A stretch of 43,102 nt of DNA from an uncultured bacterium (GTDB lineage: Bacteria > Bacillota > Clostridia > Oscillospirales > Oscillospiraceae): the NCBI GenBank assembly GCA_945873205.1, contig CAMCCC010000019.1:1-43102 (forward strand), given 5' to 3'. Below, piece after piece: positions 220-7,425 of this stretch (positions within the stretch are counted from its first letter, which is position 1; each line of letters opens with the position of its first letter). The notes below the pieces were generated by a model that worked only from the letters and a program-made list of their open reading frames with translations, was not told the DNA's origin and searched no databases. The position numbers and the translations under genes were made by a program.

Positions 220-1824
220 ATGAAGATCACATTTCTCGGAGCCGCCCATGAGGTCACCGGCAGCTGCACCTATATCCAGGTGGGGGACAAGAAGGGCATT
301 GTGGACTGCGGCATGGAACAGGGGAGGGACCTGTTTGAAAACGAGAGCCTGCCCGTCCCTGCCGGGGAGCTGGATTTCGCCCTGCTGACCCACGCCCATA
401 TCGACCATTCCGGCCATCTGCCCCTGCTGTATAAGCAGGGCTTCCGGGGCTCGGTCTACGCCACCGCCGCCACCTGCTCCCTGTGCGACATCATGCTGCG
501 TGACAGCGCCAACATCCAGATGTCCGAGGCGGAGTGGAAAAGCCGCAAGTCCCTGCGAAACGGCGGGCCGGAGGTAGAGCCCCTGTACGACCTGGAGGAC
601 GTGGCCGGGCTGATGAGCCATATGATCCCCTGTCCCTACGGCAAGGTGGTCCAGGTGAACGACTGCGTCACCGTCCGCTTCACCGATGTGGGCCACCTGC
701 TGGGCTCCGCCGCCATCGAGGTCTGGCTGACGGAAAACGGCCAGACCCGGAAGATCTGCTTCAGCGGTGACCTGGGCAATCTGAATCAGCCCATTCTCCG
801 GGACCCCCAGCCGGTGAAGGACGCCCAGTATCTGGTGATCGAATCCACCTATGGCGACCGGAACCACAGTAAAGAGCGGGTGGACTACGTCTCCGCCCTG
901 GCCAGCCGCATCCAGGCCACCCTGGACAAGGGCGGCAACCTGGTGATCCCCTCCTTTGCCGTGGGCCGCACCCAGGAGATGCTGTACTTCATCCGGGAGA
1001 TCAAGGAGCGGGGCCTGGTCACCGGCCACGGGGATTTCCCGGTCTATGTGGACAGCCCCCTGGCCGTGGAGGCCACCACCGTCTTTCTCCAGTGCGACAC
1101 CCAGTTCGTGGATGAGAATATGCAGAAGCTGATCCGCTCCGGCATTAACCCCATCGTGTTCCCCGGTCTGGAGGTATCTGTCAGCCAGGAGGAGTCCAAG
1201 GCCATCAACGAGGACAAGACCCCCAAGGTCATCCTCTCCGCCAGCGGCATGTGCGATGCCGGCCGTATCCGCCACCACCTGAAGCACAACCTGTGGCGCA
1301 GCGAGTGCTGCGTCCTGTTCGTGGGCTATCAGTCCGAGGGCACCCTGGGCCGCAGTCTGGTGGACGGGGCGAAAAAAGTGAAGCTGTTTAACGAGGAGAT
1401 CCAGGTCAACGCCGCCATCGATGTGCTGCCCGGCGTCAGCGGCCACGCGGATAAGGACGGGCTGATCGCCTGGCTCCAGGCCTTTGCGCAGAAGCCGGAG
1501 CTGGTCTTTGTCAACCACGGCGACCCGGAGGCTGCCGATGCTTTCGTCGCCTGCCTCAATGACCAGCTGGGCTACCGGGCTGCCGCCCCCTACAGCGGCT
1601 CCCGCTTTGATTTGCTTTCCGGACAGTGGGAGCGGATCGCCGAGCCGAAACCCATCAAAAAGGCCGGACCCAAGGCCCGCACCGTCAGCAAGGCCTTTGA
1701 ACGGCTGCTGGCGGCGGCGGAGCGGCTGCTCAATATCAGCAAGACCCTGGAGGGCCGGCCCAACCGGGTGCTGGAGGGCTTTGCCAGGGATATCGACAGG
1801 CTGTCGGATAAGATGGAAAAATGA
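220..1824 (+). CDS. MBL-fold/beta-CASP ribonuclease (YSH1/CPSF-like)
   Basis: A 534-residue cytoplasmic protein of the metallo-beta-lactamase, beta-CASP and RMMBL architecture, a family of zinc-dependent RNA-cleaving enzymes related to eukaryotic CPSF73 and COG1236. The metal motif HAHIDH is at residues 58-63. SGDLGN follows in the MBL domain. The beta-CASP part contains VIPSFAVGRTQ, DSPLAVEAT and SASGMCDAGRIRHHL, and the RMMBL end has GHADKDGL and FVNHGD. About 60 residues after the last motif form a basic, probably helical extension. AGGAGG sits 7 bases before the ATG. It is probably monocistronic, since a small hairpin with a T-run follows the stop. The exact RNA substrate cannot be told from sequence. 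Family assignment is secure. Confidence 0.93.
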   Translation: MKITFLGAAHEVTGSCTYIQVGDKKGIVDCGMEQGRDLFENESLPVPAGELDFALLTHAHIDHSGHLPLLYKQGFRGSVYATAATCSLCDIMLRDSANIQMSEAEWKSRKSLRNGGPEVEPLYDLEDVAGLMSHMIPCPYGKVVQVNDCVTVRFTDVGHLLGSAAIEVWLTENGQTRKICFSGDLGNLNQPILRDPQPVKDAQYLVIESTYGDRNHSKERVDYVSALASRIQATLDKGGNLVIPSFAVGRTQEMLYFIREIKERGLVTGHGDFPVYVDSPLAVEATTVFLQCDTQFVDENMQKLIRSGINPIVFPGLEVSVSQEESKAINEDKTPKVILSASGMCDAGRIRHHLKHNLWRSECCVLFVGYQSEGTLGRSLVDGAKKVKLFNEEIQVNAAIDVLPGVSGHADKDGLIAWLQAFAQKPELVFVNHGDPEAADAFVACLNDQLGYRAAAPYSGSRFDLLSGQWERIAEPKPIKKAGPKARTVSKAFERLLAAAERLLNISKTLEGRPNRVLEGFARDIDRLSDKMEK

Positions 1825-1842
1825 GGCACGGCCTCGGTTTTT
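1823..1842 (+). terminator. Small terminator-like hairpin after the RNase gene
   Basis: GAGGC-ACG-GCCTC (1823-1835) followed by GG and TTTTT. The stem is only 5 bp and overlaps the stop codon, so termination may be partial. Confidence 0.45.
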
Positions 1843-1844
1843 CG

Positions 1845-1873
1845 TTGACATAACTTTGAAGCTGTGTTACCAT
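1845..1873 (+). promoter_or_regulatory. Sigma-A promoter of the pseudokinase-lectin unit
   Basis: A perfect TTGACA (1845-1850), a 17-base spacer and TACCAT (1868-1873, 4/6). It lies between the small terminator and the ATG at 1911, so it would start the unit 1911-6344. Confidence 0.7.
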
Positions 1874-1910
1874 AACAACAAAAGCTTGTAGTGTAACAGG
1901 AGGCATTCCC

Positions 1911-3470
1911 ATGGCAAAAACCATGTTTGATCCGGTCCATGTGCTTGGCAAGCGCATCGTCGGCATGTCCCAGCAGGGCGTGTGTGAGTTCGCGTCCAAG
2001 CTGTGCGGCTGCATCGAGGCCCAGGTGGGCAGCCAGAGCTACCGGGGCGGCATTTTCCCGGAAAATATCAGCGTGGATGAGGAAGGCAATGTCGGCATCG
2101 GCCCCGCCGCCGACAGCGACTGGCAGGGACAGGAGCTGGATTTCCTGGCGCCGGAGCTGTATTGGCGGGGCCAGCCCTCCGCCGCGTCGGACGTGTATTC
2201 CGTGGGTATGCTGATGTACTATGCCCTCTCCGGCGGCAAGCTGCCTTATGAGGGGGAGTGTCAGGATGCGCAGCTGCGCCGCATGGGCGGGGAGGATCTG
2301 CCGGCCCCCAAGGGCACCGGTCGCCGCCTGAAGGAGATCATGGAAAAGGCCCTCCGCTTCCAGAGCGCCCAGCGCTTCCAAAGTCTGGGGGAGATGCAGG
2401 CCGCTTTGGACAGCTGCATCAAAAATCTCTACCTCAACGGCGAGCCTTCTGCCGAGGCCATTTTCAAGAAAAATGACGACGATCTCAGCGAGATCGAGCG
2501 GATGATGGTGGGCATCATTGAAAAGGGGGACGAGGCCCCGGAGGAAAGCGGCGGCGACGGCGAGGACGTGAAGGTCTACGCCCCTTCCACCCCCATTGCC
2601 GACGCCAAGGCCGCTGCCCGGGCCCAGGCCCAGGACCCGGCCCAGATCATTGCCCAAAAGCTGAAGGAGCAGGGCAGTCCTGCCGTGCCCAAGCTGCGGG
2701 AGGAGAAAAACCCGGAGCTGGCGCCCATCAGTCCCCTGCGCCATGAGGTCAAGACCCCGCCGGTGCAGTATACAAGGAATGTGGAGCGGGAGAAGAAAAT
2801 CGCCGAGGATGTGAAAAAGCGCCGCCGCCGTCCGTTGGCGGTGATCCTGGTGCTGTGCGCGCTGCTGATCGTGGTGGCCATCGTCTTTAATGCCATGCTG
2901 AAGGATATCCAGCAGATCCGGGGCAAGGCTACCCCAACCCCGGCGCCGACGGATATCTACCTCAGCACCATGGCCCCGGAGCCCACCACCGATCCCAACG
3001 ACCCCTACGGCCTCTTCATCGAGAAGCCGGAGAAGCCGGAGGCCTCTGCTGCCCCGGAGGAGAGCCCCGCACCCCGGGAGCACGGCTATGAGCTGGTGGT
3101 GGCGGACGTGAGCTGGACCGAGGCGGCCCAGCGCTGCCAGGAGATGGGCGGCCGGCTGGTCACCATCAACGACGAGGAAGAGTTCAACACCGTCATTGCC
3201 CTGGCGGAGGAGCAGGGGGTGCCCCGGCTCTGGATCGGCTGCCACCGGGTGAACGGTCAGCTGGTGTGGGAAGACGGTACCACTGGCTATGAAGTCTGGG
3301 CCAAGGGCGAGCCCACCTATGTGGACATCAACGACCAGGTGGCCGAGGACTACGTTATGCTGTGGGACAATAACGGCTGGGGCTATAACGACAACCGCAA
3401 CGACCCCATTGCCGACTACCCCCAGTGGTACTCCGGCACCGTGGGCTTCGTGTGCGAATACGGCGAGTAA
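1911..3470 (+). CDS. Pseudokinase C-lobe / TM / C-type lectin-like fusion protein
   Basis: A 519-residue single-pass membrane protein. Residues ~25-170 resemble only the C-terminal lobe of Ser/Thr kinases: PEN with a following acidic turn (50-60), APE (80-82), the D-x-Y-S-x-G motif (94-99), and a closing helix with the conserved Arg (155). No glycine-rich loop or VAIK lysine precedes it. The HRD position reads RGG and the DFG position reads PAA, so it should be catalytically dead. An acidic then basic linker follows. KKRRRR (302-307) precedes a TM at ~309-329, placing the kinase-like part inside. A Pro/Thr-rich stalk (340-390) leads to an extracellular C-type lectin-like domain (391-519) with SWTEAAQRC, LWIG and a final GFVCEYGE. 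The ATG follows AGGAGG. It is the first gene of a unit with the next three. Ligand and partner are unknown. Confidence 0.8.
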   Translation: MAKTMFDPVHVLGKRIVGMSQQGVCEFASKLCGCIEAQVGSQSYRGGIFPENISVDEEGNVGIGPAADSDWQGQELDFLAPELYWRGQPSAASDVYSVGMLMYYALSGGKLPYEGECQDAQLRRMGGEDLPAPKGTGRRLKEIMEKALRFQSAQRFQSLGEMQAALDSCIKNLYLNGEPSAEAIFKKNDDDLSEIERMMVGIIEKGDEAPEESGGDGEDVKVYAPSTPIADAKAAARAQAQDPAQIIAQKLKEQGSPAVPKLREEKNPELAPISPLRHEVKTPPVQYTRNVEREKKIAEDVKKRRRRPLAVILVLCALLIVVAIVFNAMLKDIQQIRGKATPTPAPTDIYLSTMAPEPTTDPNDPYGLFIEKPEKPEASAAPEESPAPREHGYELVVADVSWTEAAQRCQEMGGRLVTINDEEEFNTVIALAEEQGVPRLWIGCHRVNGQLVWEDGTTGYEVWAKGEPTYVDINDQVAEDYVMLWDNNGWGYNDNRNDPIADYPQWYSGTVGFVCEYGE

Positions 3471-3479
3471 CAGGAATCC

Positions 3480-3503
3480 GGGCCGCTCAGTACAGAGCGG
3501 CCC
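3480..3503 (+). other. Intergenic hairpin inside the unit
   Basis: A perfect 9-bp stem, GGGCCGCTC and GAGCGGCCC, around AGTACA, with no T-run after it. It is more likely an mRNA-stability or processing hairpin than a terminator, since the GTG of the next gene follows at 3531. Confidence 0.6.
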
Positions 3504-3530
3504 GGCGGAGAGTATAAACGGAGAACGACA

Positions 3531-4010
3531 GTGAACATCAGAGCTTTTGTACCGGCGGATATCGACGCCGCCAACCAGGTGTGGAATGAAGTGGTGGAAG
3601 CCGGCGTGGCTTTCCCCCAGCTGGAGAAGCTGGACCGGGAGAGCGGCCTGGCCTTTTTCCAGTCCCAGAGCTTTACCGGCGTCTGCGAGGAGGACGGGGA
3701 AATCCTGGGCCTTTACATCCTGCACCCCAACAACGTGGGCCGCTGCGGCCATATTTGCAACGCCAGCTATGCCGTTGCCTCCCGGGCAAGGGGGCGGGGC
3801 CTGGGGGAGGCCCTGGTGCGCCACTGTCTGGACAAGGCCAAAGAGCTGGGCTTCGGGATCTTGCAGTTCAACGCTGTGGTCAGCAGCAATACCCCGGCCC
3901 TGAACCTGTACCGCAAGCTGGGCTTCACCCAACTGGGTACCATTCCCGGCGGCTTCCTCATGAAGGACGGAAGTTATCAGGATATTATCCCCCACTACAA
4001 GAAACTCTGA
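3531..4010 (+). CDS. GNAT family N-acetyltransferase
   Basis: A 159-residue acetyl-CoA-dependent acetyltransferase. The acetyl-CoA pyrophosphate loop is visible as RARGRGLG at 85-92, followed by the helix EALVRHCLDKAKELGF, and the closing motif N-x-x-A-L-N-L-Y-R-K-L-G-F is at ~120-132. The N-terminus MNIRAFVPADIDAANQVWNE is typical of the family. The start is GTG with GGAG 7 bases upstream. It lies 60 bases after the pseudokinase-lectin gene and 30 bases before the serine hydrolase gene, so co-transcription is likely. The substrate (small molecule, protein or antibiotic) cannot be inferred. Confidence 0.88.
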   Translation: MNIRAFVPADIDAANQVWNEVVEAGVAFPQLEKLDRESGLAFFQSQSFTGVCEEDGEILGLYILHPNNVGRCGHICNASYAVASRARGRGLGEALVRHCLDKAKELGFGILQFNAVVSSNTPALNLYRKLGFTQLGTIPGGFLMKDGSYQDIIPHYKKL

Positions 4011-4040
4011 TAAAAAACGAAAGGAAAAGGATGGTGCGAT

Positions 4041-5519
4041 ATGCGCAAAACCTATCGGCTCCTGGCGTGCCTGCTGCTGTGCGCTCTGCTGCTGCCCGGC
4101 AGTCTGGCCTGGGCCACCGGGGACAGTGCCGATCCCGGCAGCGACGCGGGATCATCCCTGGCCAGCCCCACAGACCCCAACAGCATCCTTGACGGCACCG
4201 TCCTCACCTCCAAAATTCAGAAGGTTCTGGATGAGCAGAGCATTGACCCCAAGCAGATCAGCGTGGGCTATTACTACTCCGCCACCGGGGACAGCTGGTA
4301 CTTTAACGGCGATAAATGGTTCTATCCTGCCAGCATGTACAAGGTGCCCCTGGTGATGCTGCTGGCGGAGAAGGTACATAATGGGGAGCTGAGCCAGGAC
4401 AGCCAGGTCTATGACGGCGTCGTGGCCGACATTGAGGAGCACATCCTCACCTATTCCAACAACGACTGGGCCCATGCCATCCGCAAGTATCTGGGCGGCG
4501 ACGACAAATGGCGGGAGGACGCCAAAAAATACGCCCAGCTGAAGGAAGAAGATTACGACCCGGACTACCTGGAGTATTGCTATTTCAGCAACCGCTACAT
4601 GACCCAGGTCATGACCACCCTGTACACCCAGAGAGAGCGCTTCCCCAACGTGGTGGAGTGCCTGCTGAATGCCCAGCCGGAGGGCTATTATCGGCAGACC
4701 CTGGGAGAGCAGTATGAGATCGCCCAGAAATACGGCAGCTTTGAGGACAGCCGGGGCGTGAAGTTCAACCACTGCACCGCCATTATCTACACCCCCAACC
4801 CCATTGTGGTCACGGTGATGACCAGCAATGTGAGCCGGTATGAGACGGTCATTGCCCAGATCGGTAAGATCCTGGCAGACTACAGCCTCCAGCTGGACCC
4901 CCAGGTGGAGGATCACAAGCAGGCCCTGGAGCAGGCGGCTCTGGAGGAAGAGCAGCGCCGGCAGGAGGAAGAAGCGGAGGCCCAGCGCCAGCGGGAGGAA
5001 CAGCAGCGCCTGGCTCAGGAGGCCGAAGCCCAGCGTCAGGCCCAGGCAAAGAAGGATGCTGCCGCCCAGAAACGGAAAGAGATCGCAAGCTACGCCGTGA
5101 AGATCGCCGCGGCCCTGGCGGTCCTGGCGGTACTGGTGCTGCTGGTACTGTTCCAGCTGCGGCGTCTCCGGGCCCAGCGGGAGGAAGACCGCCGGTACCA
5201 GGTTCAGCGCCGCCGCTATGATTCCGATGCCTACGACGACGCACCCTACGACGAGCCTTACGAGGAAGCCTATGAGGAGCGGCCCCCTGTCCGCAGGGTC
5301 CCCCGTTATGAGGAGCCGGAGGATGATGCGCCGGCCTGTGAGCGATATGAGGAGCCGGAGGATGCGCCGGCCTACGAACGGTATGAGGAGCCGGATGACG
5401 CGCCGGCCTATGAGCGGTATGAGGAGCCTTACAAGGCGCCGGAGCGCCGCAGCCAGCGCGCCCCTGATCGCCGGGGCGGGCAGTCCGGCCGTCGCGGGGG
5501 CTATACACCAAAACACTAA
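4041..5519 (+). CDS. Membrane-anchored class A beta-lactamase-fold serine hydrolase with Tyr/Glu-rich tail
   Basis: A 492-residue protein. A signal peptide or anchor (5-25) is followed by an extracellular penicillin-recognising fold. Its nucleophile motif S-M-Y-K is at 98-101, preceded by PA, a possible S-N-N is at 139-141, and K-Y-G at 230-232 could stand for the KTG motif. A highly charged Gln/Glu/Arg coiled coil spans ~295-347. A second TM (~350-372) leads to a cytoplasmic tail with 12-13-residue repeats of the form R-Y-E-E-P-x-D-A-P-A-Y-E (422-470) and a basic end. Family knowledge suggests binding or hydrolysis of beta-lactams or peptidoglycan peptides. The topology is that of an envelope sensor rather than a secreted lactamase, and the weak third motif leaves catalysis uncertain. 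Confidence 0.75.
   Translation: MRKTYRLLACLLLCALLLPGSLAWATGDSADPGSDAGSSLASPTDPNSILDGTVLTSKIQKVLDEQSIDPKQISVGYYYSATGDSWYFNGDKWFYPASMYKVPLVMLLAEKVHNGELSQDSQVYDGVVADIEEHILTYSNNDWAHAIRKYLGGDDKWREDAKKYAQLKEEDYDPDYLEYCYFSNRYMTQVMTTLYTQRERFPNVVECLLNAQPEGYYRQTLGEQYEIAQKYGSFEDSRGVKFNHCTAIIYTPNPIVVTVMTSNVSRYETVIAQIGKILADYSLQLDPQVEDHKQALEQAALEEEQRRQEEEAEAQRQREEQQRLAQEAEAQRQAQAKKDAAAQKRKEIASYAVKIAAALAVLAVLVLLVLFQLRRLRAQREEDRRYQVQRRRYDSDAYDDAPYDEPYEEAYEERPPVRRVPRYEEPEDDAPACERYEEPEDAPAYERYEEPDDAPAYERYEEPYKAPERRSQRAPDRRGGQSGRRGGYTPKH
5304..5450 (+). repeat. In-frame tandem repeat of 36-39 bp
   Basis: Four consecutive units begin with the codons for R-Y-E-E-P at 5304, 5343, 5379 and 5415. The first is 39 bp, with an extra Asp codon, and the next two are 36 bp. 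The fourth diverges. The repeats encode the cytoplasmic tail of the serine hydrolase-like protein and keep frame, so they are candidates for length variation between strains. Confidence 0.85.
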
Positions 5520-5540: not shown

Positions 5541-6344
5541 ATGAAACGATTTGTATGCATACTGCTGGTGCTGTGCCTGGTTCTGGGGCTCAGCGCCTGC
5601 GGCGGATTCAAATACGGCGTCAATGAAGTCCAGGTGCTGATGGAGCAGGACTACTCCCTGGCTTTCCGCAACAACGACCCGGTCTACCTGTATGTGACCG
5701 CCGCCATCAGTGTTCTGGCTGCCCAGGGCAAGGTGGATGAGCTGAGCCTGAAATGGCTGGGCAGTGCCGACGCCATCAAGTTCGCCAAGCAGGCCGACGC
5801 TCTGGATGCCCTGCCTCCGGCGGAGAAGCGTGTGTTCACCGTAGGCATGGACATCAACTCCTTCCCCCTGGCCTACATCTCCAACGGTGAGTTCTGGGGT
5901 CTGGACGCGGAGCTGGCCCGGGCTGTGGCCGCCCTGCTGGGTTGGGAGCTGAAGTTCCAGGAGATCGAGAAGGAGAACGTGTATATTGAGCTGTCCTCCG
6001 GCAACATCGACTGCGCCTGGGGCGGCGTGGCTCTGGACCCGGCGGAGGTGGAGGCGGGGAAGTATACCCAGTACGGCCCCTATATCCACAACGACATCGT
6101 CATTGCCACCCGCAACGGCTCCGCCGTGTGGAACAAGCTGCGGCTCAATGGCCGGAAAATGGTCATGAGCTCCACCCCCGAATCCATGGAGGCCCTGAAC
6201 ACCGACGAGCGGCTCTCCAAGCGCCTGGGGCAGATCACCCGTCTGGCCGGCGGCACCACCCAGTGCTTTGAGTATCTCTACGCCGGCAAGTGCGACGTGG
6301 TGCTTACCGACAGCACTGCGGTGATGTATTTCAACTGCCATTAA
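5541..6344 (+). CDS. Lipoprotein with a circularly permuted SBP_bac_3-like domain
   Basis: A 267-residue lipoprotein with lipobox L-S-A-C (cleavage before C20). Residues ~97-265 follow the extracellular solute-binding protein family 3 pattern from its start: F-T-V-G-M-D near 99-104, G-x-D-x-E-L-A-R-A-V-A near 120-130, L-S-S-G-N-I-D near 151-157, and C-D-V-V-L-T-D at 251-257. The segment that normally ends the domain (Y-S-L-A-F-R-N-N-D-P, then a helix, then G-K-V-D-E-L-S-L-K-W-L-G) is found at the N-terminus instead, at 38-74. This order suggests circular permutation. Such domains usually bind amino acids or similar small ligands. No permease or ATPase gene is nearby, so a sensing role is as plausible as uptake. 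The start ATG is 21 bases after the previous gene. Confidence 0.75.
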   Translation: MKRFVCILLVLCLVLGLSACGGFKYGVNEVQVLMEQDYSLAFRNNDPVYLYVTAAISVLAAQGKVDELSLKWLGSADAIKFAKQADALDALPPAEKRVFTVGMDINSFPLAYISNGEFWGLDAELARAVAALLGWELKFQEIEKENVYIELSSGNIDCAWGGVALDPAEVEAGKYTQYGPYIHNDIVIATRNGSAVWNKLRLNGRKMVMSSTPESMEALNTDERLSKRLGQITRLAGGTTQCFEYLYAGKCDVVLTDSTAVMYFNCH

Positions 6345-6401: not shown

Positions 6402-7425
6402 ACCACTTATTTTCTACTTTTTCCGCGAAGCCGGGGAAGTCCTTCACTTCAATGACCCGCCCGTCGTCCAGCACGGCCTTGCCGGTGAAGCGGCCAAAGA
6501 CCTGATGCTGGTCGGATTTAATGAGCTTCACGTCGGTGCAGGCCGCCCGGTCCAGCACCGGGACAAAGTCCATCTCGAAGCGGCCGTCGTCGGAACTGAA
6601 GGTCCAGGGGGACATGAAGTCCTTCTCCCCGCCGGGGATGTGGAACTGCACCTGGCTCAGCTTATGGGCCTTGCCGTTATAGAACAGCATATTCTCACTG
6701 GCAGCCTCCGTGTTGCCGAAGCCGTAGCCGATGTTCCAGCCGAAGGGCACACCGTCCACCTGATAGGAGGCGCTGCCCCAGTACCAGGTGTTGTGATAGG
6801 TCCAGACGCCCCGGCCCCAGTCCAGCACGGCGAAGCTTTCCGCCGGGTCAAAGACATAGTCCCGCCCGTCGTAGGTCACCTGGCCCCTGGCCCGCATACA
6901 GTTGATCTTCTGGTTGTAGTAGAAGTGCCCCGGCTTGTCAAAGGGGGTGCAGATCACCATGCTGTCCTCCGGCTCGTCAAACAGCTCCACTTTGGCGTAG
7001 AGGGAGCCGCCGGGGCCGAAGTTCTTCATCTGGGCGATGAGAATCCGCTTGCCGTCGCCCTTGTTGAGGTAGCGGATGGAGTGATTTTTCCCGGCGTGGA
7101 ACACATCCCCCACGGCGGAGGTCTCCGGCATATGCAGCTTGCCCAGGGGCATGAAGCTCATGGGGCTGTTGGTATGCTCCCAGCCCTCCTCAAAGTTCAG
7201 CAGGGAGATGGAATCCAGGCCCATGTAACCGTTGTCGTCCACGGTCAGGGCCAGGGCGAAGCGGCCGTTGTTGATCAGGTAATAGTCCCATTCCTTGATG
7301 CGCAGTCTGGAGGCCTTGATATCCGCCCGGCGGTAAACGGGCAGCAGCTTTCTGGCAAAGCCCGGCTCCGTCAGGTTCCCCTGGCTGTCCAGCAGGGGGA
7401 TGGCTTGGGTGATTTCATGCTGCAT
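6400..7425 (-). CDS. DUF2804 domain protein
   Basis: A 341-residue protein matching the DUF2804 family across its length. Landmarks are an N-terminal Q-G-N-L-T-E-P-G-F segment, W-D-Y-Y near residue 46, D-W-G-R-G-V-W near 203, F-G-W-N-I-G-Y-G-F-G in the second half, and W-T-F-S-S-D-D-G-R-F-E near the end. The Trp- and Gly-rich pattern suggests an all-beta fold. No signal peptide or TM is visible. No biochemical role is established that I can cite. The ATG follows AAGGAG by 8 bases, and the gene starts 3 bases after the helicase-loader stop, so it is probably the third gene of that operon, although no functional link is obvious. Confidence 0.85.
   Translation of the reverse strand: MQHEITQAIPLLDSQGNLTEPGFARKLLPVYRRADIKASRLRIKEWDYYLINNGRFALALTVDDNGYMGLDSISLLNFEEGWEHTNSPMSFMPLGKLHMPETSAVGDVFHAGKNHSIRYLNKGDGKRILIAQMKNFGPGGSLYAKVELFDEPEDSMVICTPFDKPGHFYYNQKINCMRARGQVTYDGRDYVFDPAESFAVLDWGRGVWTYHNTWYWGSASYQVDGVPFGWNIGYGFGNTEAASENMLFYNGKAHKLSQVQFHIPGGEKDFMSPWTFSSDDGRFEMDFVPVLDRAACTDVKLIKSDQHQVFGRFTGKAVLDDGRVIEVKDFPGFAEKVENKW

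Follow-up and report, generated by a model that had tools for sequence, protein, structure and literature searches.

The gene at 1911..3470 of the window, by which we mean the whole analysed stretch of 43,102 nucleotides, raises the question of what a kinase-like domain stripped of its catalytic residues does inside a membrane protein whose outer end is a lectin. The gene, which lies on the forward strand together with all of the features given below unless stated otherwise, encodes a protein of 519 aa. According to the profile matches, residues 17–171 (1959..2423) correspond to the C-lobe of a protein kinase without an N-lobe. Within this half-kinase, the alignment revealed a degenerate catalytic loop, RGGIFPEN (2043..2066), in which HRD is changed to RGG and the lysine two residues past the aspartate to phenylalanine, with the asparagine retained, as well as a degenerate DFG motif reading P-A-A (2103..2111), an APE motif (A80–E82; 2148..2156), and the DVYS of helix F (2190..2201). 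Two more conserved cytosolic motifs are found C-terminal to the half-kinase, at residues 178–204 (2442..2522) and 259–274 (2685..2732). As the sequence-only reading had proposed, a basic stop-transfer, KKRRRR (2814..2831), is followed by one transmembrane (TM) helix (residues ~308–330; 2832..2900) and then by a lectin: the hydropathy maximum (3.29) belongs to the 19-residue segment beginning at residue 308, a fast-evolving stalk rich in Pro, Thr and Glu extends over 2901..3080, and a C-type lectin-like domain recognised by profile matches makes up residues 391–519 (3081..3467). The terms cytosolic and extracellular refer here to the predicted orientation of the protein in the membrane.

Inspection of the DNA upstream of the gene revealed a ribosome-binding-type AGGAGG (1898..1903) and a promoter-like element, TTGACA-17-TACCAT with TG preceding the −10 hexamer (1845..1873), which is a consensus match only; four promoter-like sites were observed in 1600–4100, with 0.7 expected. 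The element hints at a promoter of the gene's own. The upstream neighbour is a gene for a beta-CASP/RMMBL metallo-hydrolase. An inverted repeat of 11 pairs (3478..3505), also a consensus match only, is located directly 3′ of the stop codon of 1911..3470 and has a terminator-like score on the reverse strand only.

The first part of the question is whether the half-kinase could be an enzyme. The initial claim that the cytosolic part comprises only a kinase C-lobe is borne out by profile comparisons. All of the 24 family members compared match PF07714 (E ≤ 0.001), and in the hhalign comparison with a complete kinase (E-value, 3.9 × 10−27) residues 1–124 of the latter, which constitute its N-lobe, remained unaligned. 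The catalytic-loop asparagine is preceded by a median of 52 residues in the half-kinases of the genus (50 of 51 proteins measured), compared with 164 in complete kinase-lectins (5/5) and 169 in other kinases (8/9). Because the N-lobe is absent, the half-kinase has neither a P-loop nor the VAIK lysine. The median distance from the catalytic-loop asparagine to the APE glutamate is 30 in half-kinases versus 38–39 in the comparison, and by this measure the activation segment is partly lost.

The alignment of the genus comprised 58 rows, 53 with the HRD column and five short-form rows without it; the 53 rows represent 51 proteins, presumably because two insert-bearing ones (L035 and L036) give two rows each. 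The column of the HRD aspartate holds glycine in 53/53 of these rows. Of the 23 rows contributed by other genera, 17 have glycine there, two each have asparagine or alanine, and one each has cysteine or serine. The catalytic aspartate, whose loss had been read from the RGG of the window protein, is therefore found in 0/76 aligned rows. The parallel claim that DFG is gone holds for the window protein. Across the alignment, the column has proline in 41 genus rows and an aspartate in three genus rows and four others; the alignment is less certain here because of the shortened activation segment. At the same time, the APE glutamate, the helix-F aspartate (Asp94), and Arg155, the partner of APE, are kept wherever they are aligned, i.e., in 51/51 genus rows (seven are gapped) and 23/23 other rows, and the rows retaining these three fold-supporting residues come from 18 genera. 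The inserts of L035:10001-10720 and L036:10001-10720 are 35 residues long, are located within the half-kinase and, by eye, resemble a tandem copy of the stretch past the degenerate catalytic loop.

Over ten pairs among five close relatives, mean dN/dS values of ~0.14 (half-kinase), ~0.13 (lectin), ~0.09 (linker) and ~0.38 (stalk) were obtained; purifying selection on the half-kinase and on the lectin is of similar strength. Structure prediction, which had been suggested as a check on the fold, gave a poor model of the half-kinase (pLDDT 53, from an alignment input of only seven rows), and the fold call was therefore not rested on it; it is the profile comparison that points to a kinase C-lobe as the likely fold. 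With the fold residues retained and the catalytic residues lost, the lobe appears to be maintained for its shape and not for its chemistry. The earlier view that the protein is not an enzyme thus agrees well with the missing N-lobe and HRD aspartate, seen together with conserved fold residues and purifying selection. A split kinase, in which an N-lobe supplied in trans would complete an active enzyme, has the absence of that lobe as the sole point in its favour, and it is made highly improbable by the lack of the HRD aspartate in every aligned row, by the shortened activation segment, by the mere 86 bases that separate the upstream stop codon from the start codon, and by the absence of a free N-lobe among the Pkinase matches listed for the window's genome (E ≤ 0.001). 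Other bacterial pseudokinases, such as SelO and SidJ, have gained new activities (excerpts of PMC12599244), so an unconventional enzyme may be imagined; it is equally hard to credit here, as the activities of SelO and SidJ use ATP according to the same excerpts, whereas the half-kinase is devoid of the entire N-lobe.

The outer domain of the window protein matches PF00059 with 35.1 bits (cut-off, 22.6), and the same profile was matched in 25/25 members (E ≤ 0.001), which supports its recognition from sequence as an extracellular C-type lectin. Four of the five calcium-site residues are nearly invariant. The residue census located E467 (of EPT), E479, N493 and D494 (3309..3392), which we take to be Ca2+ site 2. 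Glu467 was found in 51/51 proteins of the genus and 19/20 of other genera, Glu479 and Asp494 in 51/51 and 20/20 each, and Asn493 in 46/51 and 20/20. The asparagine of EPN is replaced by Ser or Thr in 51/51 genus proteins and in 20/20 other long proteins. Because of this replacement, and because three SH3-bearing proteins retain little of the Ca2+ site, sugar binding is not assured; in the reading preferred below, the ligand is probably a glycan bound via an EPS/EPT-type Ca2+ site. Both cysteines of the long-range disulphide (C409 and C515) are present in the window protein and in 34/51 genus proteins.

A search for proteins with both folds, as had been recommended, found them across the genus and in 16 other genera. 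The genus sample consisted of 61 genomes (the window's own and 60 others): the long form was present in 49, a short form without the half-kinase in nine, and neither in three (G026, G055 and G060), which gave kinase-type matches only. Of the named records, that of Candidatus Limivicinus faecipullorum is nearest, and others bear the names Oscillospiraceae or Ruminococcaceae, including one from roe deer abomasum. In the family sample (300 genomes, with at most four candidates scored per genome), many genera had both halves among the matches listed, and both profiles matched within one reading frame in 20/20 loci fetched from 16 other family genera. Three loci fetched from another genus have a divergent lectin domain, with a bacterial SH3 domain identified by Pfam in L118, the one that was scanned, and one further fetched half-kinase is truncated by a contig end. 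The wider search covered 394 genomes of the order and 391 of the class, partly overlapping, with the best three to four candidates scored per genome, and its result refers to frames with both halves, kinase-only rows from outside the family being left out. Outside the family (f1), no frame matching both halves was found among the matches listed, except for G508 and G700, which turned out to be complete kinases once fetched. The unrooted kinase tree of 53 rows included half-kinases from 15 of the 51 genus proteins and all 24 of those fetched from other genera, and a branch with a support of 100/99 separates all 39 from the remaining rows. Based on these matches and this tree, the half-kinase-lectin protein is a family-wide lineage.

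Complete kinase-TM-lectin proteins were also identified, namely L123, L124 and L126 from two genera of the same family, and L138 and L139 from a second family, in which their two genomes belong to a single genus. They are similar to the half-kinase proteins in domain order, lectin family and bacterial order, but differ from them in having the N-lobe, HRD and DFG (DFS in L138), and in the EPN of the lectin (5/5), the asparagine of which is Ser or Thr in the long half-kinase proteins counted. Their kinases form a separate clade of the unrooted tree (support, 100/96), whereas the tree of the lectin domains has little resolution; the half-kinase protein may descend from a complete kinase-TM-lectin protein or may have arisen via a separate fusion. 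In L123, L124, L138 and L139, the kinase-TM-lectin gene is followed by a gene for a protein of 361–379 aa, with a weak HTH_23 match in two of the four (L138 and L139), and the two genes possibly represent a receptor kinase plus regulator pair. Pfam analysis revealed clostridial lectin proteins with a zinc ribbon, TPR or VWA (L129:3065-5308, L127:5544-6575 and L122:172-1734), further clostridial lectin proteins with such other modules were read by eye in L152–L157, and an 896 aa protein of G049 (L095:4981-7668) combines Peptidase_C26 with a lectin domain at its C-terminus that belongs to the same family. Given this variety of cytosolic modules on clostridial lectins, the lectin seems to serve as an all-purpose external binder to which different inside modules are attached.

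It might then be asked whether the half-kinase matters at all: it could be a relic, or an optional extra, on a lectin that does the work as an adhesin or as an anchor in the envelope. Consistent with such dispensability are, besides the clostridial TM-lectin proteins with other cytosolic parts, the lectin-only, lipoprotein-like relatives (L043:7715-8527 and L096:4975-5592) and nine short-form proteins (220–427 aa) with TM and lectin and no half-kinase, which are the sole relative in 9 of the 58 genus genomes with any relative. The short forms are placed on at least two branches, three by parsimony, of a rapidly built tree in which several branches are long, and the presence or absence of the half-kinase within the genus, which may reflect loss or late gain, requires three changes, at least two of them forced, where long branches meet. 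However, purifying selection acts on the half-kinase about as strongly as on the lectin, the three fold-supporting residues are kept across 18 genera wherever aligned, and the core of the first linker motif (178–204) persists in 7/9 short forms, and we consider this reading rather unlikely. The second motif (259–274) is found in 3/9 of them. As a beta-CASP nuclease gene lies directly upstream of 40/49 long genus loci and of 0/9 short ones, the short forms may be located elsewhere in the genome, and could be paralogs or copies that have moved, instead of the long gene minus a part. The lectin-only gene of L043 adjoins a long gene.

Genome context was considered as a possible guide to a partner. 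A Beta-lactamase2 gene was present within the fetched stretch at 25/49 long and 4/9 short loci, and an SBP_bac_3 gene at 26/49 and 4/9, with several of the stretches ending at contig ends. Among the genes used as queries against 20 half-kinase loci of other genera, only the nuclease recurred (4/20; L099, L100, L103 and L105), and no neighbour gene was conserved across genera. The proposed look at the neighbours kept by two-fold proteins therefore came out negative, and the context names no partner; the nuclease, Beta-lactamase2 and SBP_bac_3 were rejected as such. Within the window, 4041-5519 encodes a Beta-lactamase2-family protein with a C-terminal hydrophobic stretch and a long charged tail, 5541-6344 an SBP_bac_3 protein, and 6403-7425 a DUF2804 protein with a full-length match.

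In the window's genome (91% complete), the 1911..3470 protein is the sole Lectin_C match, and one kinase lies above the Pfam cut-off, a PASTA-bearing enzyme of the canonical Ser/Thr type; directly upstream of its gene is one for PP2C_2, and there is one FHA match. This set makes the resident PASTA kinase circuit a natural candidate for the docking partner. The kinase is encoded by a different gene, and a Pfam scan of the 1911..3470 protein up to E 1 found no PASTA domain. In other genomes of the genus, Pkinase matches range from none to many among the matches listed (13 in G022, 8 in G037 and 18 in G052, versus the one above cut-off in the window's genome). The same kinase, phosphatase-type and FHA genes would suit a phospho-regulated scaffold, with phosphate groups placed on the cytosolic part by the PASTA kinase and read by the FHA protein. 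The precedent is MviN of Mycobacterium tuberculosis, where PknB phosphorylates the pseudokinase tail and the tail recruits FhaA (excerpts of PMC12599244). MviN, however, dimerises by means of its N-lobe, and we regard this kind of phospho-regulation as rather unlikely here.

The reading that we prefer, with a probability of about 0.5, is that of a single-pass membrane sensor with the C-lobe as a docking module and the lectin as a ligand binder; "ligand-sensing scaffold" remains the best inference. The outer lectin domain would bind a ligand at the end of its flexible stalk, the C-lobe and the two conserved linker motifs would dock a partner protein in the cytosol, and ligand binding or clustering outside would alter the docking inside. 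The partner would most likely be the cell's own Ser/Thr kinase or a client of that kinase. The genomes with only a short form (9/58), the lack of a neighbour gene conserved across genera, the replaced EPN asparagine, the degraded Ca2+ site of the SH3-bearing proteins, the poor structure model and the occasional aspartate at the DFG column are points against the sensor.

Among the solved structures, the half-kinase profile best matches the PASTA kinases StkP (E-value, 5.8 × 10−10) and PknB. Both are two-lobed, possess HRD and DFG, and carry PASTA repeats where the half-kinase protein has the lectin. MviN also has a flippase part and, to our knowledge, no C-type lectin. It is otherwise described as a bacterial TM protein that combines a carbohydrate-binding domain with a pseudokinase in the cytosol and regulates cell-wall synthesis by recruitment (excerpts of PMC12599244); the N-lobe dimer interface of the MviN and ActPs3 pseudokinases has no equivalent in the half-kinase protein. 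EssB/YukC of type VII secretion, a TM scaffold from Firmicutes whose pseudokinase likewise lies in the cytosol (excerpts of PMC12599244), differs in retaining the N-lobe, with a degraded glycine-rich loop, and no lectin is described there. No word starting with "lectin" occurs in the main text of the pseudokinase review PMC12599244, and no published description of the half-kinase plus lectin layout was found in the literature searched, i.e., without preprints and most subscription papers. The sequence-only reading knew of no bacterial system with this layout, which still stands for the whole; for its parts, MviN and the eukaryotic KIND module are precedents.

KIND is a kinase C-lobe that serves as an interaction module (excerpts of PMC3415841 and PMC11231147) and is borne by Spir, PTP-BL, FRMPD2 and a Ras exchange factor. 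Like the half-kinase, it is a free-standing C-lobe without an N-lobe or catalytic residues; unlike it, the described KIND modules are eukaryotic, and KIND lacks helix G, the place of which is taken by a partner peptide. No KIND family was present among the matches listed for 24 members (E ≤ 10), in a library that may lack a KIND model. Since the best profile matches of the half-kinase are bacterial kinases, it likely arose independently of KIND. A bolder version of the sensor, which we put forward only tentatively, is that the protein is the bacterial equivalent of KIND, derived independently from a Ser/Thr kinase of bacteria, and that its lectin-gated signalling would proceed only by docking of the C-lobe, perhaps to the PASTA kinase; glycans outside would then tune that kinase through a receptor that is itself non-catalytic. 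What is new is a pseudokinase receptor cut down to its C-lobe and fused to a C-type lectin across a bacterial family. If the reading is correct, bacteria, like eukaryotes, would have turned the kinase C-lobe into a free-standing signalling module, one that gut-associated Clostridia have coupled directly to a lectin-type sensor, and because long, short, complete-kinase and lectin-only relatives coexist, the role of the dead kinase is directly testable.
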